Source: Bugula neritina (taxonomy: Eukaryota > Bryozoa > Gymnolaemata > Cheilostomatida > Bugulidae). From it: DNA of 64,000 nt. The notes under the pieces were generated by a model that searched no databases, was not told the origin of the DNA, and worked only from the letters and a program-made list of their open reading frames with translations. A program made the position numbers and the translations under genes. The DNA is taken from positions 18,919,759 through 18,983,758 of the forward strand of contig OZ037767.1 of NCBI GenBank assembly GCA_964035545.1. Reading direction: 5' to 3'. Positions 8,095-64,000 of the stretch are shown here, one piece after another. The first letter of the stretch is position 1. Every line of letters begins with the position of its first letter.

Positions 8095-11000
8095 TCAAGA
8101 TGGTCGATTCTGTAGTTGAAGCTCACTCAGCCACTGAAGCAGTCGGTCGTGTTTGTCCAATTCTGCCAACTTATACAGGAAGTCTACGAGCACCGAGTCC
8201 CCCGCCAGCAGTGAAGAAACCCCTGCTAAGGTGACCTTGACCCTGTGATCAGTGACCCTGTCTTGCGGATAGTTGTACGTGCGAATCTTCTCATTCCTGT
8301 TAGCCCCGCCTATCTGCAGACGTCTCATGTGACTCGTGTTAGCCTGCTGTTCGCTCAACTGCTTCCCGTATAATCGTGATTTCAACTCTTCTAAGGCTAG
8401 CTTTTTGTTTTTAATTTGAGAACGATCTTGTTGGCACTCTACAACCGTCCCTGAAACAACAGATAAACCCTCCATAGAGAAACTGAGCTAAAACAATGCA
8501 TCTATTCACATATACAAAAAAAAAGAAACATAAAATTTTTTTTAGCAAATTATATCTGAGCCGACAACTCTAAGGGCCAATAATTTTTAAATGCTAAAAG
8601 TTCATTGCTTGATGATAACTTCCATTGACAAAATGTTGAGCCAGAAATCTGTACTAAACATCATACTAATACAACTAACCTGTGTTACGTGTCACTTAAC
8701 GTGACTACTAGACACTCACCTGTGTTATGTGTCACTTATACATTACTACTAGACACTCACCTGTGTTATGTTTCACTTATACATGACTACTAGACACTCA
8801 CCTGTGTTATGTGTCACTTATACTAGACACTCACCTGTGTTATGTGTCACTTATACTAGACACTAACCTGTGTTATGTGTCACTTATACATGACTACTAG
8901 ACACTCACCTGTGTTATGTGTCACTTATACATGACACTCACCTGTGTTATGTGTCACTTATACTAGACACTAACCTGTGTTATGTGTCACTTATACTAGA
9001 CACTAACCTGTGTTATGTGTCACTTATACAGATGACTAACCTGTTGGTAGATGAGTGATTCTCACAGCTGAGTCAGTTGTATTCACACTTTGACCTCCAC
9101 CACCACGAGACCTGAATACGTCAATCTATAGGAAAATAGAGATATTTTAATGCAAGAACAAAGAAGGACGACCTCTTTAGAACAATTAAAAATAGTGCAT
9201 CTATGCAGGCAAAAGTGAGTAAGAGCTGTGAGTAAGAGCTTGAATCAATAATGAAAGGGTCCAATTAGAGATTTAGAGAAATCTAGTTAAGCTTTATATA
9301 CTATATTTATATGTACCTAGAGGGAGCAGCCGTGGTCTAGGCGTTAGAACACTGGCTTAGTAAACACGAAGTCATGGGTTCGAAACCCAACAAAGGCCAT
9401 TGGTGATGTTAGGAAGAGCATCCAGTCATAAGTGCTCCAGGAACACATATGAATAAGTCCTTAGCCCGATTTAACAAAGAAAAAACTATTTCCATCAGGG
9501 GTTTCTTATAGGGATGGCGACTATAAACTTATGTGAGTTTTATTTACATTTAACTGGCTTCAAAACGAAATAGCAGTGTGAAATATTTAACACAACACTA
9601 GCTGGATCCCCTACAACAGCTAGTAGCAGAAACAAAAGCATTATGAGCTGATAGAGTATAAGCAGAACGTCATGACTTAAGGGCTAATCATTACATAGAA
9701 TAGTAACAGAACCTTGAGATCTTTCTTGTCAATTTCAATATGAATATTCTGTGGCTTGGGGAGGACAACCACTACAGAAGTGCTGGTGTGCATTCTTCCG
9801 GATCTTTCTGTGGCTGGAACTCTCTGCACACGGTGAATACCACCTGGAACAAACAACTGAATACTTCAGTGTATGTGTGTGTGCTACAATGCTTACACTA
9901 CAATCATGCGTGTGCTACAGTGACTATATATTTTTAAAGCAAGATTTTATATTGTCCTCACCCAAACATGTCTCAATATAAAACTATCCATGATTATAGT
10001 GTTTAGACAAGAAAGATTTAAAAAGGAAATGACACAAAACACACAGCATAAAGTAAGTAAATTCACTCAAACCATCAAGCGCTGTAACAGTTCAGAACAA
10101 CCAACCAAATAAAAGACATACTCTCAAACTTGAGTAACTTGTAGGCCTGGTGACCAGAGATCTGGAGCTGCACTTTATTAATAGACTTGGAGGAAGAAGT
10201 TGACTCCATTTCCTGTAAGTGAGTCACGGAATATCTCCACCCCTGACTCATGCACAGCCTGCGAATGAATCACACTAAATGATATCATTAGATAGCATAG
10301 CAGACGACATGATGTCACAAGGTATAATCTCTTCAATCATATCAACTAATTTGAAAATGTTTGCATTGAATTTCTCATGATGAGTTAAATGTTAATAACT
10401 CTAAAACCTGAACTTGTTCATTAAAAAGTCTTAATTCTAGCAACAATATCTTCATTTAATTAACAATTTACTACCCAAAAAGGTCAATTAAATCAACATT
10501 GAACAGTTTCAATTACAGCTTAACATACGTACTTTATTGACGGCAAGATTTGAAAAGGCTGTATAGTATTCAACTAATTTAAATGAATAAAAGTCCAAAA
10601 AACTCACACTATAACTAGAATTATCATAATATATATTTAACAGTATATCCTGGAAGTCATAAATGAAGACTTGTCAATCCTTGCCTTCTTCCCAGCATAG
10701 AAACTGGACCTCTCAACTAACCTTTCATACATACAGTAGAGGTCATAAGTGAAGAGCCCCGCTTCAACCCCGCCCACACCGGCATGAACTTCCAACAGAA
10801 CATCCGTCACCTCATCTGAAATTATCATAACCACAACTACACTGTGATTCTACCGCAGGGCCTTTACATGATATATAGTACATCTTATAAATTTGTCTCT
10901 GGTTGTTTAAAAAGCATCTCTATCTACACTTCACCTGCAAGAGACTTAGTTTTAAAGTGAAAACCAACACCAACTAGTATTTCAAAACACATTGAGCAAT

Positions 11001-12677
11001 TTAAAAACTACAACTTTTTGAAAATCTGTTGAACTCTAATTCTCAAAACTGCTAAGAAAGAATGTTGGTAAAAAAGTGAGGTTATTTAGCAGGGGACAGA
11101 ACTACCAACTTTACTGAGCCGAGAGTAATGAAAATTAGTTGAAAAGATCATTGCTTTAGTCATGTGACTTTACGACTATTTCTAACCAATTTTAAATAGA
11201 AAGTTTAAACGAGTAATCCACAACTACTACATATATGCATTACCAGCTGATGAGCAACAAAATGCTAGAGTTGTTTCTCCATCTGTCACAATGAAGCTGA
11301 GATGTTTCCAGAGCTGGCACACGGTAACATATGACCCACCTGTTTCCAGGGCTGGTACACAGTAACTAATGACTCATCTATCTCCAGGACTGGTACACAG
11401 TAACTGATGACTCATCTATCTCCAGGTCTGGCACACGGTAATTGATGACCCACCTGTTTCCAGGGTTAGTACACAGTAACCGATGACTCATCTATCTCCA
11501 GGACTGGTACACAGTAACTGATGACTAATCTATCTTCAGGTCTGGTACACAGTAATTGATGACCCACCTGTTTCCAGGGCCGGTACACAGTAACTGATGA
11601 CTCATCTATCTCCAGGTCTGGTACACAGTAATTGATGACTCACCTGTTTTCAGGGCCGGTACACAGTAACTGATGACTCATCTATCTCCAGGTCTGGTAC
11701 ACAGTAATTGATGACTCACCTGTTTCCAGGTCTGGTACACAGTAATTGATGATGTCAGAGTACAATTGCTGCTGAGATTCTAGAAGAGTTTTCTTCTCGT
11801 CTCTCATCAGTTTCTTCATGCTATCATCTTCTTCCTTTTCCATCGCCAAATTGATCTCTTCGACATCACTCTCAGACTTCTTGACCTCTTCATACTGCAT
11901 TGAGAAAAAGAAATAATCTGCAAAACTCAATCAAGCGTGGTGATGCATTTACTTTGTAAATCGAAACATCAGCTCAAATATATATAATCTGGTTTCTGGG
12001 GCCTTTAAACTTTTGCTGGTAACCACTTTGCAAGGACTTTAAAACAGGATAACAATTGTATTATAGATGCATTTGCTAACTAGCTATTCCAATTGAAAAA
12101 TTTGATCCGTGCCATGTAATTGTGGTGAGAAGGTGCTCCTATTTGGCAGGTCGAAGCTTACAAAAAAACTTCAGAAGCTCTCTAGGAAGTCCATTTTAGT
12201 GAATAAATGAAGCTGAAATTTGATTCTGCTAAATTTCGCTTTGATATCAACATAGAATGACGGCACAGTACATCAAAACCAACCAGCTTTGCAGTTTCAG
12301 TTATCTGCAATAGTTTGCGTCTGCTGTTGCCATCCAGTTTAGAGGTCATTGCTTCAGAATTCAGTCTGTGATAGTCACTTAGCAAATCACTCAAATACTG
12401 CTTGAACTTTGAGTTCTCAGCAACTGAAGAGGTTGAGGAGTAAGTGGATACACACACAGCTGGCTTTAACAAACTTTGTGGAAATCTGAAACCAACACAT
12501 ACACAGATTTATGACTGTATGTACTGCAATCGATATTTATCCAGTCTAATATGTAATCTACATAGCTAACTTTAGGTGACAAAAAGTGTAGTTTAAAATA
12601 CATAAATACTTGATAAAAAGCTTGTAATATTAGGCCTACCTTGGTCTTTGACGGAATCGCGATAATATTTTATGCAT
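8095..12677 (-). CDS. MTRF1L: Mitochondrial translation release factor 1-like, complete, 8 exons
   Basis: Exons: 12677-12640, 12485-12272, 11894-11720, 10815-10722, 10258-10122, 9843-9713, 9125-9041 and 8450-8095. All phases agree, giving 1230 bases and 409 residues, close to the family length. The start gives an Arg-rich presequence ([19 protein letters not shown]) expected to target mitochondria. An N-terminal helical region follows, then [14 protein letters not shown] (domain 2 of class-I factors) and GIHRVQRVP. The catalytic loop [15 protein letters not shown] carries the GGQ tripeptide that triggers peptidyl-tRNA hydrolysis, and the C-terminal part includes [17 protein letters not shown]. 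It should terminate mitochondrial translation at UAA/UAG. MTRF1L and MTRF1 cannot be separated with certainty; the length and absence of insertions favour MTRF1L. Introns 3 and 7 begin with arrays that copy the splice donor. Confidence 0.93.
8687..9040. repeat. Minisatellite repeating the splice donor of release-factor exon 7
   Basis: Ten units of about 32-42 bases, each holding CAGGTGAGT or CAGGTTAGT on the minus strand. The array runs up to the authentic donor (ACAG|GTTAGT, exon end 9041) and fills more than half of the 590-base intron. Reading past the donor meets TAG at once. Confidence 0.9.
9321..9540 (+). mobile_element. tRNA-derived SINE, copy 1
   Basis: The head has an RNA polymerase III A box (TGGTCTAGGCG, 9333-9343) and B box (GGTTCGAAACC, 9377-9387). 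It is followed by a body shared with two other copies in the window (GATGTTAGGAAGAGCAT, AATAAGTCCTTAGCCC, ATCAGGGGTTTCT). It lies in release-factor intron 6. Confidence 0.85.
11306..11760. repeat. 38-bp minisatellite built from the end of release-factor exon 3 and its donor
   Basis: Twelve 38-base units. The unit nearest the gene body is the last 30 or so coding bases of exon 3 plus its donor (GAAACAG|GTGAGT on the minus strand, exon end 11720). Some units alternate as a 76-base dimer: those with CAGGTGAGT keep a donor, and those with TAGATGAGT have lost it. Confidence 0.92.
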
Positions 12678-14116: not shown

Positions 14117-14330
14117 TTTAGAGTCGCTAGTCCCGTAAAAACCCCTGATAGATTAGGAAGGGAGGAGTTGGGGTTGAAACGGGCTAAAGACTTGCTTTCT
14201 ATATTGTGGAAAAGGAATTCTTCCTAACACGATCAATTATCTTTACTGTACTAATTTGAGTCAAACTGAATTTGTGTTTACTAATCTAGTGCTCTAATCA
14301 CTAGACCACTGCTGCTATTTCATTCACTTT
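14117..14330 (-). mobile_element. tRNA-derived SINE, diverged copy
   Basis: The reverse complement shows the SINE head (GTGGTCTAGTGATTAGAGCA), then GTTAGGAAGAAT, CTTTAGCCCGTTTC and ATCAGGGGTTTT, in the same order as the copies at 9321 and 32051. It ends just before the TTAA border of the 5.2-kb element. Confidence 0.75.
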
Positions 14331-14335
14331 ACAGC

Positions 14336-17300
14336 TTAAAGGCGGTAAGCTTCCAGGTTATTTATTACATTTGAGCAAAAGTTTGCATGCTTTTCAACTG
14401 TTTTATCAGCATTTTATCCAATTTCTTATACGAAAATACTACAAAAATGTAAGTAAAAGTGGTCATATTAGGTGTCTTGGACTTGCCCAGACTTGCCCGC
14501 GAGCGTGCCCTCCGTGTCCTATTCTGACGTGGGGATGGCAAAATAGCCCTATTGTAGCGTGAGTTTATATCGCGTAAAGTTATTAAGAAGCGGGTTTGTC
14601 ACAGATTCTCGTTATTCGTAGTTCAAATCACATGAATGTTACTCTTCGGGCGGCTACTAATAACTAACGTTAGCTACGCAACATCAAGAAAGGTAACTAA
14701 TTTGACTGTTTTCAAATAGACAATTCCATTTTGCTAGTTTGTAACTATCTGTAAATCACAAAATAATTATTTTCCCTATTTTAATTTCAATTATCATGTC
14801 GACCACACTACCAGAAAATTACTCTTAAATATGCAGTAAATGATGATTTTCAACCGTTTTGTGATGAATTATAGGTTAGTAGTTGTCTACGTAAAACCAA
14901 GTTTTAAAATTTGTAACTGAATCAGTGAAACTGAATCACAGTATGAGTATCAGTATGAGTATCACTAGTCTATGTCTATGACTCTCACTCTAACTCTAAG
15001 TCTATGACTATCGCCTATTGGTGAACTATTATTAATAATATTCAATGGTTATATTTATTAACACTATTATTAGTCATAATGATAATCATATGGCAGTATC
15101 AGTTTCGAAACTAATACTTATAATATTAGTTATAACTATAAGTATAGGTTATACCGATAGCTATATTTATATTAATATAAATATTTATATTCATAGTAAT
15201 ACTAATAACAAATGTAATATTATTATGTTAATCGTTATACTTGTAAGTTATAATATAAAGCAAACGACACAAGTATTAATTTGAACTGCTGGTCTTAAAA
15301 TAAAAAGTAAAATAAATAATAATATAAATAATAAAATATAAATTATAATAATTTAATTATACTAATACTAATAGCAATACTTATACAGTAATATAATTAG
15401 AATAAATTTATAAAACTTAAACAACTTTAAATTTAAGGAACAACTTTAAATACAAACAAAGATAATATTAAATAATTATAATCATAATGATCATAACAAT
15501 AAATATAATTATGATTCCAATAATTATCAATATATTATGTAATATTTAAATTATTTTAATCTATAATTATAATCATAATTTTTATAGTTATAGTGAATAA
15601 ATTCAATTTGACATAATAACTATAATATTATAAAGCAGTCAGCCTATCTCTAATGCTGATTGATATTCAGATTGTTATGACTGTATCATTATTCACTAAC
15701 TCTAAGAGTAAGTGGCTACAATTATTAGTATCAATGTTGTGTTAGAGTACTATACCTATTGGAATTTTGATATATCCATTATATTTACAACTCTGCCTGT
15801 TACAGCTATTAATAAATTGAACCAAAATACCAACAGTGCCTAATAATCGCCTTATTTATAAAATAATCACAATCATAATGCTCAAGTTAATAGATTGGAA
15901 ATTATTGAAAATTATGTTGTTGCCAATATAAATATGACATTGTATGCATCCAAGTAGTGATGTTGTAATATATCTTGGAAGATAATTACATTATAATAAG
16001 AGTTAAATTCCTCTAAGTAACTTTTTTTGCAATTATTCCTTAGAATAACTATAACTTATACTCCTAACATTTAATAGCGCATTAGTTTTAGATTGAGCTA
16101 CTAATTGTATTTATTGCATGTGAAAGTTAGTTATTCTCCGCCAGCTGCATGAATGTGACTGGTAAATTTTGTAACCTTTGGCAGTAATAACTTTGTAGCA
16201 TAAATTAGACAAATTTTTATGAAAATACATAATTTTAATGCTATAGCTGCTAGTAATTTTAATGGGTGTAATAATATTACTTTCACCAGCATTAATTTTT
16301 ACTTTGTTCATGCTTCATAAAGCATTTTCTAAATTCTTTTTTGAATAAATATATGTATATAATGTGCTGAATAGATTACATATGTTGGGGTTCTTCCTAT
16401 ACTGCAGCTCAGCCTACACTCCCCGCCACAAATGTTCCTAAACTACTAGCTTCATCAGGATACAGATTGATGGAGCTGTATTGATAAAAACTTCTCTTTT
16501 AGCAGTAGAGGCATCATAAAAAAAGGCAAGTATTTTACTCAATAAGAATGCGGTTTTTTACTTCTACAAATTTGATAGCCTACACGATTCTATTTAAATG
16601 GAAACTGGTCTGACATAATGTGTCTGCAATTTATTAGTTATAATATAGTAAATACTATGCGGGTCTATAGATCAAATGGCTCAAAAAAAATTAAATAAAA
16701 CATTACACAATGCTGTATTTATTAGCAATGTAATACTTAGCAAGTAATTTCACATTATTATTGTTTGCAAAGTTTCATATATCTACATATGTTTGTTCAA
16801 TTCAGTGTTCTGAAGTAGAAGGTTCCAACAGCAGGGAAAAGCCTTGAACAAGATATTATGTTCTACATCTCCAACTCATTTTAACTTTGCTGGTCAGTTC
16901 ATTGTGTATCTGGAGCATAGTTTTGTATTTTCAAGTAGTCCATCAGATACCTTTGTAGATAGTAAAGATTAAAATGCTTGTGCAATGATGTCCATAATGT
17001 TGAACCGATTTATTGAAACTAAAACTGTTCTTAATTATAACAAAACTTGACAATCTTTACGTAAAGAATAATGTCCTATAATCTATCTTCATTGTAAACA
17101 AAATTAGAAAGTTCCACACCAGCAAATTGTTTATCATCATCTGTAGGTGGAAGACGCGTGCACTCAGTTTTAAAGGCAAGCTGGCAGTGGTTTTCTTTGC
17201 CTTCTATGAAGATTTGGAAAGAGCCAGAAAATTAATACTCTATAACTGCAAAACCATGTTGTAGTGTCTTGTGTTATTGATTGAATCGTCTAAAAGAAAA

Positions 17301-19588
17301 ATTGTTGTATCATTATAATTTTACTGTTGATGAATTAGCAAATCTACTTATCTTGGTAAATATATTCAAGAACAAATACTATAGTGTAACTCAGTTTTGG
17401 TTATGTGCATGCTCCTTAAGTGAATTTACAGCAGATATCAAACTATATATTAGAGACTGATATAGGAATTAAATTTAAGCTAACCATGATGATGTAAATA
17501 GCTGTTGTATGTGACTTCGAGAACTCTGCTGGCCATGTCAGTTCAAATACACCAGGGTGATCTGTTACGAATTTCATGTCATTATTGAAATTCAGCTTTT
17601 TCAAGTGCCTCTTCACAACTCTGGCAGCATTCTGACTGCTACTTAGCTTTCTGCGCCTGAAATTTCTTCTACTTGCACCATTCTTCTATTGGTGGAATGT
17701 TAGCCTATAACAAACAGGTGTACCAAAGCTAAAAAAATATCTAATTCACTGCACTAGGATATTATTCAACTCATTTAAATTTAATATATAGCAGTAAAAC
17801 AATCACATAATTGTTTTTATTTTATCAGCTTTACTTTACAAAGCTGAACCATATAATTTAGTAACTTGTCACCATAATAAACTTTGTACAACATACAAAT
17901 TGAAAACCTGATGTGATTGCTTTTTTAATAGAATATACATCAAAAACATGTTACTTTGATAAGCGTGTTTATAATAAAAGTATTAAACCAGTTAAAAAAA
18001 ATTATTTTGTTATATAAGGGATCACAAAACTACATCATTTTAGACCTGTAGCTCAATGTTCCTCAAGCAACGGGCTGCTATGACTAATTAATTTTCTATC
18101 ATTGCATTTGATTGTTCTACTCATAGTGTATTGGCGAGTTAAAATTATTGGTAATTTAATGTATATTTTAGCTACCTCTGTACAATCAATGTCATAGTAA
18201 TATCAATTAGGTTTTAAATTTCACTGAGTTTATAGTAAATTACTGCAACCGTTACATAACATTTGGCTAGTTCTCTAGTTCATTAAATAACCATACGAAC
18301 TTAAATTTACAACATGAAAAAAACACACAAAGCAAAATCAAAATAAGCATATTATGAACCAATGTAATTGATAAGCGATAATGCTGTTATATAACATAAA
18401 TTATCAAATTGAAATAGTTATTATTACTATTAGTATTACTATCATTATAACAACTATAATTATTATTAGTATTACTATTACTATTAGTATTAGCATTAGT
18501 AGTAAAAAATGAGTCGAGTTCAACATAATATACAATCTAGCTTACTATAAAAGTAGAAGTAGAACTTTTAAAACTATCATCTGCATCATTATCAGAACTA
18601 TGAGTAATACTAGTAGTTGTACTAATAGTAATACTAATTATTAATAGTAATAGTATCACTATGAGTATGAGACTTGGGCTGGCAGTGATTATCACGATCA
18701 GTATCAACATCGTCATAGTCAAAAGTTACAAGAATAGAAGCCATATTCATATTGATATTCTCATTGAGTTATGCATAGTCATATTCATAGTAATACTAAT
18801 AGTCAATCACTGATTGAGTTTATGTCATAGTGATACTCATACTCATAATTAATTTATACGATACTCATACTCATAGTGATACTTCACCGTGAATTTAATA
18901 ATAATTTTAATTTAATATTATCATTGTTGCTAATATTATGTCTTACTCTTAGTCTAACAGCAGCTCTATGAAGAAGTTAAACATAACTGATAACAAAACA
19001 AATTAAAAAAATAATACTGCAACAATCAATATAATGTATATCAATATGCTAGCAACCTAATTTTCAGCTCACTTCATTAACTTTCCGTGCAGTATTGTGA
19101 ATTGTGATAAAATAAATTTATTAATGGTGACCTTGACATCTTCGTCCAAATGCCTTTCACGTCAAGCCCCGAACCAATTTGTAAAAATTTTGGATTTTTT
19201 ACTTTTGATTATTTTTTACGAAAAGAGCTTCAAAATAAATTTAAAAAAAAGTGAGCTGTTGTCCACATGAAAAGAAATATATGAGCTAATTTTCTAAATT
19301 CAGGAAGTTACCAGAGGGTCACAATATTTTTTTAAAAAAATCTTTATTTTCACGACAAGCTCTATATATTAATATAGAAAAATAGAAGACAACTCTTTTT
19401 TCAGATTTTTCATGTGCCACGGTCACGTCAATATCAGTGCTATTAACACATATATTTTAATTCATTTTTTCTGGTATATTGAGTTGAGATTTTTTGTATA
19501 TATTTTGTGAATGCAACTAAAAAAGTATGATCTTTTAATTAACAGTAATTGATTTTATCAAAATAACCTGGATGCCTACGATGTTTAA
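14336..19588. mobile_element. 5.2-kb TTAA-bounded inverted-repeat element, copy 1
   Basis: Near-identical to 43781-48944 along its whole length. It begins TTAA-AGGCGGTAAGC-TTCCAGGTTATTT and ends with the reverse complement of TTAA-ACATCGTAGGC-ATCCAGGTTATTT, an imperfect terminal inverted repeat of about 27 bases between TTAA sites. TTAA target sites are typical of piggyBac elements, but the terminal bases are not the usual CCC and no transposase frame is present, so the class is unsure. The inside is AT-rich, with chains of TATTAGT/ACTAATA-like words and two relic exons on the minus strand. It also holds about 330 bases (near 18205-18532) that copy 2 lacks. Confidence 0.85.
17076..17685 (-). 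pseudogene. Relic exons of an unrecognised protein carried by the 5.2-kb element
   Basis: Minus-strand open segment 17685-17443 (about 80 codons, no Met start) reads RRKLSSSQNAARVVKRHLKK..., then GVFELTWPAEFSKSH, and meets a GTTAGC donor-like site. A second segment, 17203-17076, follows a good pyrimidine-rich acceptor. It reads EGKENHCQLAFKTE..., then DDDKQFAGVELSNFVYNEDR, and ends in TAG. Both segments exist in copy 2 with mostly amino-acid-changing differences, so they do not look constrained now. The source gene is not recognised; gene capture by the transposon is inference. Confidence 0.45.
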
Positions 19589-23023: not shown

Positions 23024-25074
23024 ATGTCTTCATCAGCAGTAATTCAGTCTCTTCTGGGCAAATGGAAGGACTCTAGTGCTGATGCTGAAAACCTGGAGGC
23101 CTATCTCAAGGCAATAGGTAAGACAATTATTAATTAAGAAATAGAAAACTTTTTTCCTGGTCTTTCAGATCAACTATATACCTAACGCTGATTAAAATTA
23201 TAATCTATTGTAATTATACAGTAGTGTCCTTAATTAGCAGCTGTAAACTTTGTAGGGTTTCAAATATGTGTAATTAAATAATTTTGACTTCCTTATTTTA
23301 ATAGAAATATATATTAACCAATAAGTCTATATGTAAATATAGTTGCTAAAACTTGAAAGGTTCTTAAAAACATATAAATTATAAGTTTTCACCTTTAGAA
23401 AGGTCATAATATAAGTAATGGCTATGTCTAATTACTGTTGTTCAACAGGGACACCCATTGCATGCTGTTACCTGAGTTTAAAATGATATTTAATTTCTTG
23501 CTCGAAATAATATTCTCAAAAACATCTAAAGAATAGTTATAATTTTAAAAACATAAATCAAATCCTTATGAACTATGTATACCTTTCTAAAATAACCTTC
23601 TGCATTGATTGATCGCCAAAAGAGAAAAAAACTCATTAATTGATGAATTAATCTTGTGCAAAAAAACCTAACAAATATGTATAAACTATCTTGTGTTTAA
23701 TATGAACACTTTCACAAACACTTAATGGTAATTAAATGTTGCTAAAATAATTTTTCTTTGTCCTTGAAACTTCGATTCAGAATAGCATTTATCAACACTT
23801 CTGCACAAATTTGTTTTCATAGTATTGCAGCACAAATTGAGAGAATAAAGCCGCTGTAGTACTACTACCATGTGTAGTGTAGATATATACCAAATAAATA
23901 CTGCTACCACATGTCTTGTAGGTGGACTAAATAAATACTGCTGCCACATGTCTTGTAGGTATGCCAGATGAAGCGGTAAAGGCAGCCTGTGAGTCTGAGG
24001 CCACAACAGAATGGACTGCTGATGGTGATGCAGTGACTTACTCTTTTGAGTCGAGCTTCAAGCCCGGCAGCGTGCGGAGTATTACCTTTCAGCTTGGACA
24101 ATCCTTTCAAGAGAACACAATTACCGGCCGATCTCTTCAAGTGGGTGTCTTTACCAATTCCTTTTAGTTTACAGTCTAACTTTTTATGACAGTTTCCAGG
24201 TTACATTAAAAGACTTACTCCCTATAAGACATACTTTGCCGTATAACGTAGGCCGTAACAGCAAAAGTAAACCATTTTTAAAAATGACCGAGCTTCTCGT
24301 ACGGCGTTACGGTACTTCAGGACCCAAAAGATGTACTTAAAATAGTTATAGCATGTATTTGTTGAAAGACCCTATTACTTTAATTCTTGAAATCAAATCT
24401 TTAAAATTTCAAATAAACTTTAAAGCTATAAATAATAGAAGCATAATTCTCATTCGTTTAATAAAAAGCTGCTTTTTGAAAAACAAGTGGCTCGCAAAAC
24501 ATGACAGCATTGCATTATTTTCGATTGTTCAAAACAAACAATTGTTCTAAATAAAGCACACAAAGTAAATCAGCACTGCACTCACATTACAGTACAGAAA
24601 AAATTTTCAAAAATATATGCCTATTTTATATTTCACTCTTCGACATAGCTGATTATTAAAGGTAAATCGAATAAAATAATTAAGTGACCTTGAAATGAAG
24701 GTTGCTTTTTTCTATATTCAGCCATATTGTCATAGCATAAACATATGGATATACATGTTGTTACAAATGTTACAATTGAAGCAATTAAAATGGTATTTAA
24801 AATATTCATTATGCAAACCTGCCACAATCCAGAATAAATTAAAAATTGAAAGCGTCACTGCTCACTGCCAATAGCGTCACCATTTTTGAATAATCAATCA
24901 AATGAACTTTAGTACATCGTGCATTTTCACTGAAAAAATTAATGTTATGATAGACTAATTTCTTTGCAGACGACTTACACTGAGGAGGGTGGGAAGCTAG
25001 TGAAACGGCAAATAGGCGAGCCCTTCAACTGTACAATTACAACAGAAATTGTAGAACCTGGGCTAATTGTGGAG
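23024..25074 (+). CDS. Fatty-acid-binding-protein-like (cytosolic lipocalin), last exon not found
   Basis: Exons 23024-23117, 23959-24140 and 24970-25074 join in phase and give 127 residues. The N-terminus MSSSAVIQSLLGKWKDSSAD, then NLEAYLKAIG, matches the FABP opening (GKW..., ...YLKALG). The middle (EWTADGDAVTYSFESSFKPG) and KLVKRQIGEPFNCTITTEIV fit the beta strands of the 10-strand barrel that carries fatty acids in the cytosol. Intron positions match the classical four-exon FABP plan, in which a last exon of about 17 codons follows. I could not find that exon before ALDH4A1. If the donor at 25075 is skipped, translation adds about seven residues and stops. The acceptor of exon 2 is duplicated 37 bases upstream. 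Confidence 0.8.
23892..23965. repeat. 37-bp direct duplication of a splice acceptor
   Basis: Two copies of a unit from AAATAAATACTGCT to CACATGTCTTGTAGGT. The downstream copy supplies the real acceptor of FABP-like exon 2 (AG at 23957-23958). The upstream copy ends in an identical TTGTAG at 23921 whose use would bring in a stop. Confidence 0.9.
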
Positions 25075-27426: not shown

Positions 27427-39085
<11,659 letters not shown>

Positions 39086-43323: not shown

Positions 43324-46300
43324 ATGGCTTCTCAAGAAAATTTGGAGAGTGCCGAAATAGTGATGAATAAAAATGAGGCTCCCGGCAATGATAAAGGTGG
43401 TGAAGAGACAAGTTCACCTCCAGCTCAAGAACCACAATCTCCCGCGAGTGACAATCAGCATATTTCTGGCAACCAAGAGAAACAAATAATTCAACTGAAC
43501 ACATCACCTTCTGATAAAATCCGACTCATATTAAAACCCGCAGGTATTGTACGAAGACTTGACATCTATTTCTATTTGTAGACACAGTCTTATCTCTTTG
43601 AATCAATTTCAAATTTACTTTTTTGCTTGAAATAGCAAGAACAAGAATCTGTGTGCATCTAGGCACATGTCTGTGCATGTGTAAAACATACTGTACTCAA
43701 GCTATATTATATCACTACAAGTAATTGATTAGATTTGTGACATCTAAAAACATTTTAGTATGACTTAAAATTTAATATATTTAAAGGCCGTAAGCACCCA
43801 GGTTATTTATTATATTTGAGCAAAAGTTTGCATGCTTTTCAACTGTTTTATCAACATTTTATCTAATTTCTTATACGAAAACACTACAAAAATGCAAGTA
43901 AAAGTGGTCATATTAGGTGTCTTAGACTTGCCCAGACTTGCCCGCGAGCTTGCCCTCCGTGTCCTATTCTGACGTGGGGATGGCAAAATAGCCCTATTGT
44001 AGCGTGAGTTTATATCGCGTAAAGTTATTAAGAAGCGGGTTTGTCACAGATTCTCGTTATTCGTAGCTCAAATCATGTGAATGTTACTCTTCGGGCGGCT
44101 ACTAATAACTAACGTTAGCTACGCAACATCAAGAAAGGTAACTAATTTGACTGTTTTCAAATGGACTATTCCATTTCGCTAGTTTGTAACTTGCTGTAAA
44201 TCACAAAATAATTATATTTCCTATTTTAATTTCAATTATCATGTCGACCACACTACCAGAAAATTACTCTTAAATATGCAGTAAATGATGATTTTCAACC
44301 GTTTTGTGATGAACTATAGGTTAGTAGTTGTCTACGTAAAACCAAGTTTTAAAATTTGTAATTGAATCAGTGAATCACAGTATCACTATCACTATCAGTA
44401 TGAGTATCACTAGTCTATGTCTATGACTCTCACTCTAAGTCTATGACTATCGCCTATTAGTATTGGTGAACTATTATTAATAATATTCAATGGTTATATT
44501 TATTAATACCATTATTAGTCATAATGATAATCATATGACAGTATCAGTATGTTAATGTTACGGAGCAGGATCAGTTTCGAAACTAATACTTGTAATATTA
44601 GTTATAACTATAAGTATAAGTTATACCGATAGCTATATTAACATAAATATTTATATTCATAGTAATACTAACAGCAAATCTAATATTACTATGTTAATAG
44701 TTATACTTGTAAGTTATAATATAAAGCAAACGACACAAGTATTAATTTGAACTGTTGGTCCTAAAATAAAAAGTAAAATAAATGTAAATAATAAAATATA
44801 AATTATAATAATTTAATTATACTAATACTAATACTATTAGTATTAGTATAATTAAATTATTATAATTTATATTTTATTATTTACATTTATTTTACTTTTT
44901 ATTTTAGGACCAACAGTTCAAATTAATACTTGTGTCGTTTGCTTTATATTATAACTTACAAGTATAACTATTAACATTAGTAATAGCAATACTTATACAG
45001 TAATATAATTATAATAAATTTATAAAACTTAAACAACTTTAGATTTAAGGAACAACTTTAAATACAAACATAAAGATAATATTAAATAATTATAATCATA
45101 GTGATCATAACAATAAATATAATTATGATTCCAATAATTATCAATATATTATATAATATTTAAATTATTTTAATTTATAATTATAATCATAATTTTTTTA
45201 GTTATAGTGAATAAATTCAATTTGACATAATAACTATAATATTATAAAGCAGTCAGTCTATCTCTAATGCTGATTGATATTCAAATTATTATGACTGTAT
45301 CATCATTCACTAATTCTAAGAGTAAGTGACTACAATTATTAGTATCAATGTTGTGTTAGAGTACTATACCCATTGGAATTTTGATATATCCATTATATTT
45401 ACAACTCTGCCTGTTACAGCTATAAATAAATTGAACCAAAATACCAACAGTGCCTAATCATCGCCTTATTTATAAAATAATCACAATCATAATGCTCAAG
45501 TTAATAGATTGGAAATTATTGAAAATTATGTTGATGCCAATATAAATATGACATTGTATGCATCCAAGTAGTGATGTTGTAATATATCTTGGAAGATAAT
45601 TACATTATAATAAGAGTTAAATTCCTCTACGTAACTTTTTTTGCAATTATTCCTTAGAATAACTATAACTTATACTCCTAACATTTAGCAGCGCATTAGT
45701 TTTAGATAGAGCTACTAATTGTATTTATTGCATGTGAAGGTTAGTTATTCTCCATCAGCTGCATGAATGTGACTGGTAAATTTTGTAACCTTTGGCAGTA
45801 ATAACTTTGTAGCATAAATTAGACACATTTTTATAAAAATACATAATTTTAATGCTGTAGCTGCTAGTAATTCTAATGGGTGTAATAATATTACAGCATT
45901 AATTTTTATTTTGTTCATGCTTCATGAAGCATTTTCTAAATTCTTTTTTGAATAAATTTCTACAATACATATAATGTGCTGAATAGATTACATATGTTGG
46001 GGTTCTTCCTATACTGCAGCTCAGCCTACACTCCCGCCACAAATGTTCCTAAACTACTAGCTTCATCAGGATACAGATTGATGGAGCTGTATTGATAAAA
46101 ACTTCTCTTTTTAGCAGTAGAGGCATCATGAAAAAACGGTAAGTATTTTACTCAATAAGAATGCGGTTTTTTACTTCTACAAATTTGATAGCCTACACTA
46201 TTCTATTTAAATGGAGACTGGTCTGACATAATGTGTCTGCAATTTACTAGTTATAATATAGTAAATACTATGCGGGCCTATAGATCAAATGGCTCAAAAA

Positions 46301-49300
46301 AAAATTAAATAAAATATTACACAACGCTGTATTTATTAGCAATGTGATACTTAGCAACTAATTTCACATTATTATTGTTTGCAAAGTTTTATATATCTAC
46401 ATATGTTTGTTCAATTCAGTGTTCTGAAGAAGAAGGTTCCAACAGCAGGGAAAAGCCTTGAACAAGATATTATGTTCTACATCTCCAACTCATTTTAACT
46501 TTGCTGGTCAGTTCATTGTGTATCTTGAGCATAGTTTTGTATTTTCAAGTAGTCCATCAGATACCTTTGTAGATAGTAAAGATTAAAATGTTTGTGCAAT
46601 GATGTCCATAATGTTGAACTGATTTATTGAAACTAAAACTGTTCTTAATTATAACAAAACTTGACAATCTTTACATAAAGAATAATGTCCTATAATCTAT
46701 CTTCATTGTAAACAAAATTAGAAAGTTCCACATCAGCAAATTGTTTATCATCATCTGTAGGTGGAAGAAGCTTGCACTCAGTTATAAAGGCAAGCTGACG
46801 GTGGTTTTCTTTGCCTTCTATGAAGATTTGGAAAGAGCCAGAAAATTAATACTCTATAACTGCAAAACCATGTTGTAGTGTCTTGTGTTATTGATTGAAT
46901 CATCTAAAAGAAAAATTGTTGTATCATTATAATTTTACTGTTAATGAATTAGCAAATCTACTTATCTTGGTAAATATATTCAAGAACAAATACTATAGTG
47001 TAACTCAGTTTTGGTTATGTGTATGCTCCTTAAGCGAATTTACAGCAGATATCAAACTATATATTAGAGACTGATATAGGAATTAAATTTAAGCTAACCA
47101 TGATGATGTAAATAGCTGTTGAATGTGACTTCGAGAACTCTGCTGGCCATGTCAGTTCAAATACACCAGGGTGATATGTTACGAATGTTATGTCATTATT
47201 GAAATTCAGCTTTTTCAAGTGCCTCTTCACAACTCTGGCAGCATTCTGACTGCTCCTTAGCTTTCTGCGCCTGAAATTTCTTCTACTTGCACCATTCTTC
47301 TATTGGTGGAATGTTAGCCTATAACAAACAGGTGTACCAAAGCTAAAAAATATCTAATTCACTGCACTAGGATGTTATTCAACTCATTTAAATTTAATAT
47401 ATAGCAGTAAAACAATCACATACTTGTATTTATTTTATCAGCTTTACTTTACAAAGCTGAACCATATGATTCAGTAACTTGTCACCATAATAAACATTGT
47501 ACAACATACAAGTTGAAAACCTGATGTGATTGCTTTTTTAATAGAATATACATCACAAACATGTTACTTTGATAAGCGTGTTCATAATAAAAGTATTAAA
47601 CCAGTTTGAAAAAATTATTTTGTTATGTAATGGATCACAAAACTACATAATTTTAGACCTGTAGCTTGATGTTCTTCAAGCAACGGGCTGCTATGACTAA
47701 TTAATTTTCTATCATTGCATTTGATTGTTCTACTCATAGTGTATTGGCGAGTTAAAATTATTGGTAATTTAATGTATATTTTAGCTACCTCTGTACAATC
47801 AATGTTATAGTAATATCAATATACAATCTAGCGTACTATAAAAGTAGAAGTAGAACTTCTAAAACTATCATCTGCATCATTATCAGAACTATGAGTAATA
47901 CTAGTAGTTGTACTAATAGTAATACTAATTATTAATACTAATAGACAATAGTAATAGTATCACTATGAGTATGAGACTTGGGCTGGCAGTGATTATCACT
48001 ATCAGTATCAGCATCGTCATAGTCAAAAGTTACAATAATTAGAAGCCATATTCATATTGATATTCTCATTGAGTTATGCATAGTCATATTCATAGTAATA
48101 GACATAGTCAATCACTGATTGAGTTAATGTCATAGTGATACTCATACTCATTATAATTAATTTATACGATACTCATACTCATAGTCATAGAGTATCATAG
48201 TCATAGTGACACTTCACCGTGAATTTAATAATAATTTTAATTTAATATTACTATTAGCAACAATGATAATATTATTATCATTGTTGCTAATAGTAATATT
48301 ATGTCTTACTCTTAGTCTAACAGCAGCTTTATGAAAAAGTTAAACTTAACTGATAACAAAACAAATTTAAAAAATAATACTGTAACAATCAATATAATGT
48401 ATATCAATATGCTAGCAACCTAATTTTCAGCTCACTTCATTAGCTTTCCGTGCAGTATTGTGATGAAATATATTTATTAATGGTGACCTTGACATCTTCG
48501 TCCAAACGCCTTTCACATCAAGCCCCGAACCAATTTGTAAAAATTTTGGATTTTTTACTTTTGATTATTTTTTACGAAAAGAGCTTCAAAATAAATTTAA
48601 AAAAAAGTGAGCTGTTGTCCACATGAAAAGAATTATATGAGCCAATTTTCTAAATTCAAAAAATTACCAGAGGGTCACAATATTTTTTTTTAAAAATCTG
48701 TATTTTCACGGCAAGCTCTATACGTTAATATAGAAAAATAGAAGACAACTCTTCTTTCAGATTTTTCATGTGCCACGGTCACGTCAATATCAGTGCTATT
48801 AACACATATATTTTAATTCATTTTTTCTGGTATATTGAGTTGAGATTTTTTTTAAATATTTTGTGAAGGCAACTAAAAAAGTATGAACTTTTAATTAACA
48901 GTAATTGATTTTATCGAAATAACCTGGATGCCTACGATGTTTAAGCGGCATAAGGGCATGTGCACTCCAACAATAATCAGATTCGTCTAATGGCATGGCA
49001 ATAGTAGTAGTTCTAGAATGTTATTTTGATATTGGGTGCCAACTCCCTTTGCTTATCTTCAACATAATTATTCAAATCCATGTCAAATATTTAGTAATCT
49101 GGTATGATTGTAGGTTCCACACCAGCGCTCACCAAACCCAAGTGGAATGTTACTAGAGACAAGACAATAGGATCTATAGCAACTTTTGTGAAGAAACCAT
49201 TAAAAATGGACGCTGCCCAAACCCTGTTTATATATGTGAAACAGACCTTTGCTCCTTCAGCTGATGTGTGTGTTGGCCAATTATATGACTGCTTTGGTAG

Positions 49301-53200: not shown

Positions 53201-55263
53201 TAAAACACTGGCAGCACCTTTATCCAGTCTGAAGTCCCCCGTGTAGAGAACTGTACCTTCTGCTCCCTCAATCAGCAGCATGGCTGACCCTGGACAATGT
53301 CCAGCAGAGATGGCTGTCAGAGTGACACATACACCCTGTCAGAGTGATACAGACACCTGTCAGAGTGACACAAACATCCTGTCAGAGTGACACATACACC
53401 TGTCAGGGTGACACAGACACCTGTCAGAGTGATACAGACACCTGTCAGAGTGACACAGACACCTGTCAGAGTGACACAGACACCTGTCAGAATGACACAT
53501 ACACCTGTCAGAGTGACACATACACCCTGTCAGAGTGACACAGACATCCTGTCAGAGTGACACATACACCTGTCAGGGTGACACAGACACCTGTCAGAGT
53601 GATACAGACACCTTTCAGAGTGACACAGACACCTGTCAGAGTGACACAGACACCTGTCAGAATGACACATACACCTGTCAGAGTGACACAGACACCTGTC
53701 AAAGTGATCGTTCTATGAGAAAATTTATTATTTCTTTAGAGAAACAAAACGTTGTGTTTTCAAAGTTATTGAAAAAAGAAATTGGCCTTTGCCAAAGTTA
53801 CTCCAATACTTCGATATTGGTATTGATATTGATACAATTAATTTATAATTTATGTTTTCATATCACATATGATATTGATTAGGCATCACATCAATTGAAT
53901 CTAATTACAAACTGTTATATACATTATACAACAGCTTATGTTTTATAATTGTTTGAAAACAATTGCAGCATCAACAGTTGTGATGTTCTCTCTATTTAAA
54001 ACAATTTTAAAAGTCTTATTAAAACATCATTGCTCTTTTAAAGGATAAGACAATGGGAAAGATTTAGAACAGATGCATATATAATAATATTCTCGACTAT
54101 AATATAACACAACATAATATACTAAAACACAACATAACAATTTATAATACAACATAACATAATATAATACAACATAACATAATACAATATAACATGACAT
54201 ACCTGTGATTGGTCATTTACTGGAATAAGTACCGGAGTAGGTTCATCTATCAGTAATGTGACCTTAAACAATATACGCATGTGATGAAATAGATTGTAGT
54301 GTCCATAGTAGTACTAAGAGTAGTAGCAGTAGTATTAGTAGTGGTACTACTAGTAGTACTAGCAGTACTAGTAGCAATAGTATTAGTAGTGGTACTACTA
54401 GTAGTCGTAGTAGTAGTAGTAGTAGTAGTAGTAGCAACAGTAGTAGTAGTAGTAGCAGTAGTAGTAGTATTAGTAGCGGTAGCAGTCGCAGTAGTAGTAG
54501 GAGGAGGAGTATTAGTATAGTACTAGTAGCAGTAACTATTTATGTAATAATAATATTCAGAGTTTATAGCCTGAGTAGACCTACCAGGTGTCTGTGAAGA
54601 TGTTGGTATCCCTTCATATGTCTCAACAGTTTCTTAGTGATATCTGTACAGTAGATCTTTACACTAGGACTACAAGTCAACACATGCATGTATCTGAGCT
54701 AGTTTGCAGCACTACGGATAATTAAACTATTATTAAAAAACTTTAAACGTAGAGATTCTGCAGGGCAAATTGGGTCTTATTTTGAAACCTCCAACTCATT
54801 TACCAACCAGTTTTTTTAGAGAGATGCGAAAACACAAGAATGCGATATTTCTTAAAGAATCCCTGACACACTTCACTTATGCAGTATTAAAATATTCGTA
54901 TATATGTTAGTTTTCATCTACATACTGTCTTAAGATTGGATGCTTAAACAATTTTGTTTTACAATGGATATTGTGAGAATTTGCACTGAAATGATTTGGG
55001 ATTTCTGACCACTTGCGGATGACATTTCCAGTAGGCTTTGACTTTACCGCTACTATAAAACTTATACTAATTATAGCTAACTTTCATTGCATGCAAATTT
55101 TAGCTGCTGCACTGCACAGCCTAATCAAAAATATGACTTGGAATTTGAAAGTTTTAGCTTTTAGGACATTTCCAAATCATTTCAGCACATACTGGCACAA
55201 ACTTAATTATATTAAAACAAACTGTTCACGCATACAACCTTAAAGCAGTATGCAGATGAAAAT

Positions 55264-59330: not shown

Positions 59331-59339
59331 TTATTTTAT

Positions 59340-59953: not shown

Positions 59954-60267
59954 AATTAGATAAACATATCAGAGCCTATTTGGATTTTGAAGTTGTCAAC
60001 TTTTTATTGAGTCTAATGAAAACATTGAAAGCATAATGTTTTAATTGGAATGTCTTGCCTTGTGAAGTTCTACCACACAATTATGTAGATCCAAGTGATA
60101 TATACAAATTGAAAAGTCTAGGGTTTTGATTTCTCCCCTCTCCTTTTTCACAAGATTCTCTTTAGGGGCAGGCTCTAACAAACTGATATCTTATTCTCTT
60201 GCATTGACTGGTGGCTTTTACTTTTACGGCTTTCAACAACTCGGGTGTTTGTTTCTATGATTTGAAG

Positions 60268-63200
60268 GAGAACTCTCAAACCAATGATGAGCCACGAGTC
60301 ACATGTGTCGTCCGAGACTTGACTTCTACTACCTCACAGCTGACAACAGTCACTCTGCCAACATCATACAGCGTAGATGATCTTGTCACTCATATCAGTA
60401 AACAATATGGCTACCAGCCGGCGTCCTTCAAGTTACTGTATGAACGGAACCACCAAATGGTATGTCTTCTGCCAACTAGCTCCTGTCTGGTGCAGAAGCT
60501 GCATTGCCAGTTCTAATCAGAGTAGTTTGTGAACTGGCTGGAAGTTTTGCATCAGTTAGCCTTTCATTTTTGAGTTATTTTGATTCATTTATCATTTCAG
60601 AAAGCCTCAAATCTCACTGCCTTTAGAATTTTTTTACCAAAGTCTTATATGAAGCTGAAGTCCGTGTAACTTAATAGATTGGACAGTCAATTCAGGCTAC
60701 AATTTTGTAGGAGGAGTTTAACTATACAGGAAGTAAGCTTGCAGATGTTCTGAGTACGTCTGACAGACGGATAAAGCACAAATTTCAGCTGACAGAATTA
60801 GAAGATGGTGTTCTTCCTGTCAAAGTTCAGGTTAGTTGTCTTCCCCTGCTATTGGTTGTCTCTCTCCCCCTCACTATTAGTTGTCTTCCCCTGCTATTAG
60901 TTGCCTCCCCACGATTAGTTGTCTCCCCACTATTAGTTTCCTTCCCCACTATTAATTGACCTTTGCCCTTTCATTCAGTGATTCTAGAATCTAGAACTTG
61001 TAATAATATTCATACTCAGTTCACTCTCAGTATTATATCACTACTGACTGACCTTCATGAGCTGCCAATGTGGGTTCACACCCAGCTACTACAGCGTTGT
61101 GTCTCTAGCTGTGCAACGCTCTGGCATATACAGTGCTCCCTTCATATCTCACCAATTCAGTTCCCAATAAGCTCCATAGGCCACGAGAAGGGCTTAGACA
61201 CCGTTTCATGGTTTATGTATGTGTGTTATATAGGGACAAAATGGCCGAATTTAACAGATCTGTGAGTTAAATCTGGTGTTGCTCTATGTCACGAATTGAG
61301 GTTTCAGGACCGTAGCTTAGTAGGATATAGAAGGAGCACTGTAGCTACATGATGTCTATAGTTACTTGTACTGTCACTCAGTCACTATCTTCTGAGGATT
61401 AAGTGTAACTGTATGGGTGATCTAACACAGCTCATAGAAGGTGTTATCTCTGTGGTGTTTTAGCTCGATATTTGTACTGTTGTGAGACACTTTTATCAAA
61501 CCATTTCTTATTTCCTCATATGAAATGTATTGCTATGTTATAACATAGTTTCACATCACTTTTTTTATTTAAACTTTGTTTTTTATCTAGAAGGATAGTA
61601 ATTGATTTATTTTATGTAATATACTATAATATATTGTATTATATTATATAACACTGTCATATGTTATATTATACTATATCATGTTATATAATGGTGCGTT
61701 ATATTAAATTATATCGTATTACACTATGTTATATTACACTGTACTATATTATATTTGAAGGAGGCAGGTGACATGTCTAATAATAGAACGGCGAGCAAAT
61801 CCTCCGGAAAAGTGGCATTTGATGACTTCACCCCCAGCAATCATATTCAGATGGTGAACCCATACCTCTGCATTATCAACCTCTGGCCACTATATTGAAA
61901 CTATTTGTATAGGGATAGTTGTATTATTAACATTCATCCAACATTTTCTCTAGTCTAATTGAATATAAGATGAGAATGCAAATAGTGGAAACAAAGCGAA
62001 GCCTATTGTTTATAGTTGCCCCCTCTCCCTCCTTCAAACCCTCCCTCCTGGTGTCTCATCTCTGTTAGAGAATTATTATTTACTATCTTAGTTCAGTAGT
62101 AAGATATTGCAGCTTGGAATATAACTTGAGGCCTCCTCCTCCCTACTCCATCAGCACTCTATGGTATACCCTGTCACTAATGTGATCACATGAGCTGGTC
62201 AGTGGGGGTGTTTTGGTATCTTTCTGTTACATGTTGTATTGTTCTGTAGAATACCTACGGTCCAGTGAACAATGTAGGCAGCAGTGGTGACAGCAGGTAT
62301 ATAATGCCGAGCTCAAGCAACTCGCTGCCAGATGCTGCTGACTTTTGTGGTCTGGTCAACCAGGCCATGACTTGCTACCTCAACTCACTGCTTCAGACTC
62401 TGTTTATGACCCCCGAGTTCAGGAACGCTCTCTACAGGTCAGTATATATTCTCTACAGGTCAGTATATACTCTCTACAGGTCAGTAGATACTCTCTACAG
62501 GTCAGTAAATGCTCTCTACAGGTCCGTATATACTCTCTACAGGTTAGTAAATACTCTCTACATGTTAGTATATACTCTCTACAGGTCAGTATATACTCTC
62601 TACAGGTTAGTAAATACTCTCTACAGGTTAGTAAATACTCTCTACAGGTTAGTAAATACTCTCTACAGGTCAGTAAATACTCTCTACAGGTTAGTATATA
62701 CTCTCTACAGGTCAGTATATACTCTCTACAGGTTAGTAAATACTCTCTACAGGTCAGTATATACTCTCTACAGGTCAGTATATACTCTCTACAGGTCAGT
62801 AAATACTCGCTACAGGTCAGTATATACTCTCTACAGGTCAGTAAATACTCTCTACAGGTCAGTATATACTCTACAGGTTAGTAAATACTCTCTACAGGTT
62901 AATATATAATGTATATATTATTGTATGTGTTTAGGTGGGAATATCTCCATGGTAACCAGACACAAACACCTGAAGAAAAGTGCATCCCATATCAACTGCA
63001 GAAACTTTTCCTGCAGATGCAGACAGGAAACCACAGATCTGTGGAGACAACTCCCGTGACCAGAAGTTTTGGGTGGGACAGTAGTCACTGTAAGTATTTA
63101 CTCTGTAGTCACTGTAAGTATTTCCCCTGTAGTCACTGTAAGTATTTACTCTGTAGTCACTGTGAGTATTTACTCTGTAGTCACTGTGAGTATTTACTCT

Positions 63201-64000
63201 GTAGTCACTGTAAGTATTTACTCTGTAGTCACTGTAAGTATTTACTCTGTAGTCACTGTCAGTATTTACACTGTAGTCACTGAGTATTTACTCTGTAGTC
63301 ACTGTAAGTATTTACTCTGTAGTCACTGTGAGTAAATACTTTGTAGTCACTGTAAGCATGTAAAGTGTAAGTACCTACTATGTAGTCACTGCGGCATATA
63401 ATACAACATTTTATAATATAATATAGTATTATATTATGTAATACTGCATTATATTACATAATACTACATTATATTATATAATACTACATTATATTGTATA
63501 ACTATACATTATATTATATAATACTGTATTATATTTTGTATTATATTCAGCCTGGCAGCAGCATGATGTGCAGGAGTTGTGTCGAGTCATGTTTGATGCC
63601 TTGGAGATCAATTGGAAAAAAACAGACCAAGCAGACCTCATCAACAACCTCTACCAGGGAAAGTTGAAAGATTATGTCAAGTGCTTAGAAGTAAGTTTTG
63701 TAGTTGTATTCTCGCTGTTTAAAATGTGGAGTCTTTTCCAAATAAAATTAATTTAAATCATGGTTATAATGTTTCTCTACCCTTCACTTGAATGAGTCGC
63801 GTAGTGGGCGGGGTTAACCATATTATGGTTGTCATTTGTTTAATCAAATGATTTTCCGGAGTTGTCTTTTCCAAATAATATAATTCCCTCTTAGTATTAC
63901 ATAGACTAAAGTTCCATACTGATTGAGGGTATGGAAATACTGTAAATCTGTCATCCCCCTGTCCTATTTATAGTGTCACACTGAAATGAGATCCAATAGT
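60268..64000 (+). CDS. USP47: Ubiquitin carboxyl-terminal hydrolase 47 (N-terminal part; runs off the right edge)
   Basis: Exons: about 60268-60459 (upstream limit uncertain), 60711-60830, 61761-61853, 62250-62437, 62935-63089, 63551-63690 and 63974 onward; phases agree. USP47 is a cysteine protease that removes ubiquitin, for example from DNA polymerase beta in base-excision repair. Seen: [13 protein letters not shown] and the following N-terminal domain. The Cys box [20 protein letters not shown], then [12 protein letters not shown], has the nucleophile Cys in exon 4. [45 protein letters not shown] and [15 protein letters not shown] follow; the last holds the first zinc-ribbon Cys pair. The catalytic His/Asp lie beyond the window. 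About 35 N-terminal residues are missing, presumably on an unseen upstream exon; the acceptor at 60267 (TTTGAAG) is a guess. Introns 2, 4 and 5 start with arrays of their own donors. Confidence 0.92.
60831..60960. repeat. Degenerate array starting at the USP47 exon 2 donor
   Basis: The donor itself begins the first unit (CAG|GTTAGTTGTCTTCCCCTGC). ATTAGTTGTC plus a C-rich tail repeats about six times, with GT lost in later copies. Confidence 0.85.
61600..61750. repeat. AT-rich degenerate array before USP47 exon 3
   Basis: ATGTTATATTATACTATAT-like words repeat up to the acceptor region of exon 3 (start 61761). Confidence 0.65.
62438..62907. repeat. 21-bp minisatellite of the USP47 exon 4 donor, about 22 copies
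   Basis: The unit is the junction itself: CTCTCTACAG|GTCAGTATA. It fills about 470 of 497 bases of intron 4. Most units keep CAG|GTCAGT or CAG|GTTAGT. The exon frame stays open (LYRSVYT repeated) until a 19-base unit near 62860. Confidence 0.96.
63090..63385. repeat. 24-bp minisatellite of the USP47 exon 5 donor, about 12 copies
   Basis: The unit contains the exon end and donor, GTAGTCACT|GTAAGTA, then TTTACTCT. Most copies retain GTAAGT or GTGAGT. The exon frame continues for eight copies (SHCKYLLC repeated) until a copy with a 2-base loss near 63280. Confidence 0.96.
63400..63540. repeat. AT-rich array before USP47 exon 6
   Basis: Five units of ATAATACTACATTATATTAT type end at the acceptor (ATATTCAG|CCTGG). 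Confidence 0.85.

Follow-up and report, generated by a model that had tools for sequence, protein, structure and literature searches.

Tandem repeat arrays in the introns of the bryozoan Bugula neritina are placed at exon-intron junctions in a real and strongly non-random manner. This pattern was analyzed in a 64,000-nt stretch of chromosome 3 (18919759-18983758), referred to here as the window, and in stretches drawn at random from the genome; it recurs along chromosome 3 and is present on chromosome 2. The arrays are very probably 'mirage'-type minisatellites, that is, short tandem duplications whose unit spans the exon-intron junction and which were amplified within the intron. In their anatomy, the first unit (at donors) or the last unit (at acceptors) consists of the exon edge and its own splice site, the remaining copies are intronic, and the units vary by intron.

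Placement of arrays relative to splice sites

We compiled a curated set of 118 introns from 17 genes (27 introns from the window and 91 from the random sample), in which arrays with a period of at least 10 and a Tandem Repeats Finder (TRF) score of at least 80 were counted; 30 such arrays were found in 27 introns. As a null, each array was excised, returned to a random position of the intron it came from and measured again, with up to 60 replicates per array. Sixteen of the 30 arrays lay within 3 nt of a splice site, with 2.85 expected by re-insertion (P 8e-13), and 11 straddled the junction by at least 5 exon nt, with 0.95 expected. The excess was present in the window, where 9 of 14 arrays lay within 3 nt (1.8 expected, P 3.7e-8) and 4 straddled by at least 5 nt (0.63 expected, P 8e-5), as well as among the 16 arrays of the random stretches, where 7 lay within 3 nt (1.03 expected, P 4.5e-6) and 7 straddled by at least 5 exon nt (0.32 expected). 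Under a stricter null, in which one unit was seeded uniformly across the intron and its edges, 4.6 straddlers were expected compared to the 11 observed (P 0.002), and 2.7 compared to 7 in the random stretches (P 0.007).

These results bear on a sequence-only reading of the window, which had named as its check whether array edges lie closer to splice sites than randomised placement allows, as they did here, and which had proposed that arrays were seeded at the junction and grew outward. The latter is upheld by units made of exon bases plus splice site and by edges exceeding the expectation from intron length, also in random chromosome 3 genes. It had further listed 13 edges at or near splice sites by intron numbers that lacked coordinates; with arrays assigned to those introns in the present analysis, ten stood, while three lay away from junctions, namely the Artemis (TAG)n and, in ALDH4A1, the arrays at 27638-28204 and 29193-29279.

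It could be argued that ordinary intronic minisatellites reach intron ends by chance, introns being short and nearly filled. Near-filled introns do exist, such as USP47 62438-62934, with 26 nt left and a 58% chance of touching on re-insertion, and L019 4618-5111, with 54 nt left, and 14 of the 30 arrays make no junction contact. However, re-insertion controls for slack and still gave the P value above; where slack was at least 70 nt, 14 of 27 arrays touched a splice site and 9 of 27 straddled it; and the units hold exon sequence. Chance contact from short introns was ruled out by the re-insertion test, and this explanation is very improbable.

The longest exact word common to the units of different junction arrays was 9 nt, and separate origins therefore follow. 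The claim of the sequence-only reading that the process acted repeatedly is supported by this value; its claim of recency holds for some arrays, as in the ATM gene, where 18 of the 23 further copies are identical to the exon copy, but not for diverged arrays. A dispersed mobile element or introner with splice-like repeats, inserted at splice sites, would offer a different origin, and a DNA search with the RF (release factor) array did match two other loci (L002 and L003). These loci, however, are junction arrays themselves, in other genes, with units of 34 and 20 nt built from their own exon ends and an AG|GTGAGT core as the common part. A mobile-element or introner origin was rejected, as no unit is shared across introns beyond the 9-nt word, and it is the least credible of the explanations considered.

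Several further features of the arrays were recorded. The arrays no more than 3 nt away from a splice site comprised 12 on the donor side and 4 on the acceptor side (P 0.08). Compared to array-free intron windows, array units were more donor-like on the sense strand (P 0.001 for net sign, 0.018 for the mean), with values of 0.019 and 0.055, respectively, for acceptor-likeness. Array-bearing introns were longer than the others (median 497 vs 355 nt, P 3e-5), junction arrays clustered by gene (P 0.03), and no array lay wholly inside the 13.4 kb of curated internal exons.

Junction arrays in the window

Exon models in the window were built from homology to solved structures and enumeration of GT..AG pairs against the expected protein, with solved homologues identifying ALDH4A1 (3v9j), Artemis (7afs), mtRF1L (mitochondrial RF1-like; 7nqh) and USP47 (8itn). 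The nearest relative of the mtRF1L protein is that of another bryozoan, Watersipora subatra (52% identity, E 2.4e-108; next match 2.3e-73). The counts exclude an uncertain mtRF1L intron after 10815 and the part of ALDH4A1 from 32578 to 30682. All arrays are compiled in Table 1.

In the longest USP47 array, the unit CTCTCTACAG|GTCAGTATATA joins the last 10 exon nt (NALYR) to the first 11 intron nt; the 497-nt intron has only 26 nt outside the array, and the protein alignment to 8itn crosses the junction without a gap. The alignment to 8itn is likewise gapless over the junction of the second USP47 junction array. For mtRF1L, the Watersipora orthologue aligns over the junction of the 38-nt array, with a one-residue gap a few residues upstream, and alignments to 7nqh and to Watersipora run without a gap across the junction of the 33-nt array. 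In Artemis, the last unit of the acceptor-side array is the exon's own first 22 nt, and the exonic status of the VTLTA(I) residues at this acceptor is supported by Watersipora artemis P0122 (QVTLTAIPAGHCPGS).

Table 1. Tandem arrays in genes of the window; vertical bars mark splice sites.
Array	Positions	Strand	Unit	Relation to splice sites
USP47 junction array	62428..62908	+	21 nt, CTCTACAG|GTCAGTATATA, x23	donor after 62437; acceptor exon base 62935
USP47 junction array	63081..63384	+	24 nt, GTAGTCACT|GTAAGTATTTACTCT	9 exon nt; donor after 63089; acceptor exon base 63551
USP47 array	60832..60958	+	~20 nt	starts 1 nt past donor (last exon base 60830)
mtRF1L junction array	11307..11752	-	38 nt, ~32 exon nt + GTGAGT, x11.8	33 exon nt in array; last exon base at donor 11720
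mtRF1L array	8706..9044	-	33 nt, stacked CACAG|GTTAGT / GTGAGT	4 exon nt in array; donor's last exon base 9041
Artemis acceptor-side array	53314..53707	-	21 nt, GTGTATGTGTCACTCTGACAG	acceptor exon base 53335
Artemis donor-side array, same intron	54099..54201	-	AT-rich	1 nt past donor (last exon base 54203)
ALDH4A1 array	34639..35280	-	(TAC)n	3 nt past donor (last exon base 35284)
ALDH4A1 array	32766..32976	-	22 nt	ends at acceptor TACTGTAG|GGAAAC, 0 nt (exon base 32765)
FABP-like acceptor duplication	23860..23958	+	CTTGTAG|GT, 2.6 copies	ends at last intron base (exon base 23959)
ALDH4A1 array	27638..28204	-	24 nt, x23.6, 99% identical	51 nt inside intron, away from junction
ALDH4A1 array	29193..29279	-	22 nt	30 nt inside intron, away from junction
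Artemis array	54306-54534		(TAG)n	44-51 nt from its intron's ends, away from junction

A diverged array adjoins the ALDH4A1 array at the acceptor and reaches about 33130. The acceptor duplication that the sequence-only reading had described in a gene which we take, by eye and without a database search, to be FABP-like was borne out; this gene was kept outside the counts.

With regard to Artemis, the predicted protein in another B. neritina record (P0121) begins with the residues that directly follow the acceptor array and shows many residue differences from the protein of the window. The acceptor array may have broken that gene model.

Junction arrays outside the window

The random sample comprised 25 stretches of 10 kb (L004-L028), 13 of which yielded introns. 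Annotation relied on a home-made gene finder that chains exons and whose training set was 1,535 codons and 25 splice pairs of the window; a Pfam family was matched for 9 of 10 predicted (partial) proteins. The analysis set aside stretches lacking any gene call that scored 50, weaker opposite-strand calls, L018, L020 (where calls on the two strands overlapped) and L028, and introns were dropped where a flanking exon had a coding score below 4, as were parts of L004 and one L019 exon. The dropped introns included one of L014 with an array 19 nt past the donor; another L014 array lay beyond the last exon. For one donor of L017, position 7204 was manually replaced by 7226, that of the first copy.

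Straddling arrays were found in the ATM, PTPR, ZFYVE26 and DNAH6 genes, all on chromosome 3. The ATM donor array consists of TTACCTACTGTTACCAG|GTATGT x23, and the PTPR array (L019) of a 29-nt unit with 27 exon nt plus GT; DNAH6 has its straddling array at an acceptor, and ZFYVE26 carries arrays at three donors and one acceptor. Protein alignments span the junctions in ATM (6k9k), PTPR (PTPRS, 4bpc) and DNAH6 (9fqr), and the alignment of ZFYVE26 to 8yad reaches two of its four array junctions.

In both mtRF1L (unit of 38) and ATM (unit of 23), the unit is the exon tail plus about six donor nt, which puts the break of the repeat immediately behind the stretch that pairs with U1. In the MVB12-like gene of L014, arrays at 5841-6047, 9214-9716 and 9929-10000 start 19, 12 and 6 nt past predicted donors, as if they halted just before the splice signal.

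Distribution along and between chromosomes

In the chromosome 3 sample, junction arrays were present in 7 of 44 introns and in four of the five usable stretches, and they were found in none of the 27 sample introns of chromosome 2 and none of the 20 of chromosome 1 (P 0.005 vs chromosome 3). Intron arrays of any kind followed the same profile (14/44 on chromosome 3 vs 2/47 on chromosomes 1 and 2, P 0.0007), which gives the impression that genes of chromosome 3 are more prone to repeats; the independent units are stretches rather than introns, which limits the weight of the contrast between chromosomes. Additional stretches (L029-L032; 15 introns, none from L032) were used solely in the chromosome comparison. 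With 8 of its 27 introns affected, the window did not differ from the chromosome 3 sample (P 0.23), so that the scope of one 64-kb stretch given in the sequence-only reading is too narrow.

Chromosome 2 does carry one case, the L002 gene, met via its likeness to the RF array; L002 and L003 were kept outside the counts, having been found by likeness to a junction array. In L002, which by eye we take to be septin-like, arrays at 1053-1376 and 1489-1715 apparently flank both ends of one exon, with 8 exon nt in the acceptor array and 18 in the donor array. L003, presumably a transporter-like gene (also named by eye), has a 20-nt TATACAG|GTAAGTGTCATAC array at a donor (1506-1780).

Several observations weigh against the mirage-type interpretation. 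No junction contact occurs in 14 of the 30 intron arrays, and the excess above uniform seeding is based on just these 30. The seven sample cases are confined to four chromosome 3 stretches, and with the 15 further introns, chromosomes 1 and 2 have junction arrays in 0 of 62 (P 0.0016 vs chromosome 3). The sample splice sites originate from the home-made, window-trained gene finder, and an annotation-free donor-motif test on unit consensus across the 25 stretches was weak and near chance (P<=0.05 for 5 of the 67 arrays in the sample). Lastly, for one ZFYVE26 array the frame into the next predicted exon is open solely from the donor of the second copy (7204) and not from the counted first one (7226); either the copied site may be in use or the acceptor may be wrong, and the array straddles the junction with either donor.

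Intron growth and intron gain

Of the introns affected by junction arrays, 11 of 15 still have 100 nt or more of other sequence, and the arrays therefore look like growth inside existing introns, which they mostly lengthen. The least non-array sequence (26, 26, 33 and 63 nt) was left in two USP47 introns, one ALDH4A1 intron and the PTPR intron. The sequence-only reading had invoked AG|GT-based intron gain; this is supported in part only, by hints in a minority of introns.

In the model of Rogers, an exonic AG|G(T) segment is tandemly duplicated, the first copy providing the donor and the last the acceptor, and the array between them would be a newborn, still expanding intron. The PTPR intron L019:1130-1267 is a candidate for such a gain: its 138 nt are exon copies plus a 23-nt acceptor tail, the GAGT of its GT|GAGT donor is supplied by the exon itself, and this domain 1 intron is lacking from the equivalent positions in the gene's own domain 2 and in the L016 paralogue. 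In USP47 62438-62934, the intron part of the unit matches the exon downstream of donor 62437 at 7 of 11 positions (P 0.017, one of 16 comparisons), and AG|G flanks were more common in junction-array introns (8/15) than in others (19/103, P 0.006). Coming from several small tests, these results are hints of gain. Against the model stand the non-array sequence kept in most introns and the poor likeness to the opposite exon, which was seen in only 2 of 12 donor arrays (USP47 62437 and mtRF1L 11720, P<0.05, uncorrected) and in none of the 4 acceptor arrays; the PTPR unit does not resemble its downstream exon either (1/6), and the missing intron in the paralogues could equally reflect intron loss. 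Gain is possible for a minority of introns; as the explanation of the arrays in general, it is unlikely.

Proposed mechanism and consequences for splicing

Under amplification of junction-spanning duplications, the exon-adjacent copy would keep the reading frame and the splice site, and extra copies would be tolerated because they are spliced out. Copy number would rise through replication slippage or unequal exchange, whereas the exon copy would be maintained by purifying selection. Such growth would lengthen introns and surround the true splice site with decoys of equal strength. The excess of arrays at junctions over uniform seeding (11 vs 4.6), together with the richness of chromosome 3, could reflect either mutation that favors these places or the better persistence of arrays bearing a splice site.

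Rival donors of roughly the same strength as the true donor numbered 22 in ATM, 20 and 9 in USP47 introns and 18 in ZFYVE26, compared to a median of 0 and a mean of 1.7 for introns lacking junction arrays; among the 15 introns with such arrays, five had none. When the longest frame from upstream was followed, seven of the 12 donor arrays were open through at least 5 copies (6, 22 and 8 in USP47, about 25 in ATM, 55 in ALDH4A1, 5 in Artemis and 5 in ZFYVE26). Both sets of values would suit selection that keeps the arrays, with stacked splice sites buffering splicing or offering open alternative 5' sites. However, a stop falls within about one copy in the other 5 donor arrays, and several unit lengths (20, 22, 23, 29 and 38 nt) are not multiples of 3. 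Selective maintenance is quite improbable.

A broader proposition goes beyond the mirage-type origin favored here: B. neritina splice junctions, above all those of chromosome 3, would be hot spots of tandem duplication, with a large share of that chromosome's introns holding junction-born arrays that lengthen old introns and occasionally make new ones from exon sequence, while spliceosomes would pick the site nearest the exon from dozens of decoys identical to it. Taken as a whole we consider this speculative, and rather doubtful.

Relation to known systems

Amphioxus mirage minisatellites were reportedly described in Canestro 2002 (Nucleic Acids Research, NAR), and human introns derived from tandem arrays are said to be the subject of Zhuo 2007. 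In amphioxus, 'mirage' minisatellites are described in Adh3, with units of 10-72 nt, and in the globin genes BflGb6 and BflGb9; the same report links them to intron gain and notes normal splicing and length instability (PMC3087553). Like these, the B. neritina repeats span the exon-intron boundary with exon bases in the unit (11/30 arrays) and occur at both 5' and 3' boundaries (12 donor and 4 acceptor arrays within 3 nt). The cephalochordate cases are described gene by gene, whereas in the bryozoan, arrays affect 8 of the 27 introns in the window and 7 of the 44 from random chromosome 3 stretches, and placement was tested; normal splicing and length instability are reported for the amphioxus repeats, the B. 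neritina arrays being known from assembly sequence and protein homology. A phenomenon known from a few amphioxus genes is now found in a distant phylum, in many unrelated genes of one chromosome.

Tandem genomic duplication (the AGGT model) is a recognized route of intron gain (PMC3443670). The B. neritina arrays resemble it in their AG|GT-bearing tandem duplications, with the PTPR and one USP47 intron fitting in part, but most cases add copies to introns that hold other sequence. In human segmental duplications, variable internal tandem repeats at exon-intron boundaries alter introns (PMC2812944). There, as here, minisatellites at exon-intron boundaries change introns; the human cases, however, are paralogue-specific, with exon repeats turning into introns, while in B. 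neritina the arrays lie beside otherwise conserved exons. Minisatellites are also reported to be tied to alternative splicing in C. elegans (PMC4039745).

No reports of mirages in bryozoans were present among the literature matches listed, subscription journals being mostly beyond their scope. The words minisatellite, tandem repeat and intron are absent from the Flustra genome paper, and the word intron is absent from the available parts of the Bugulina and Bugula genome papers (the latter PMC11480708). The B. neritina assembly was built from high-fidelity (HiFi) reads at 132x coverage with a quality value (QV) of 53.7 (PMC11480708), and sub-kilobase arrays should therefore have been spanned by reads.

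Events of intron growth and gain usually lie too far back to be reconstructed, and fresh junction-copied arrays offer intermediate stages within one species. How introns grow, and perhaps arise, is thereby open to direct study in B. neritina, with gain in a minority now testable. The arrays also constitute natural tests of spliceosome choice among many identical donors, and if the difference between chromosome 3 and chromosomes 1 and 2 is genuine, its cause can be looked for. For annotators, cases such as Artemis P0121 are a warning that junction arrays may break gene models.

Other observations

Near-identical translated pieces occur in the same order at 14300-19500 and 43800-48900 of the window, about 29.5 kb apart, which suggests a block of some 5 kb, either duplicated or mobile. 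Three of the 25 random stretches (L008, L009 and L027) are almost all satellite, with a 321-bp family and 20-bp units repeated about 507 and 500 times.

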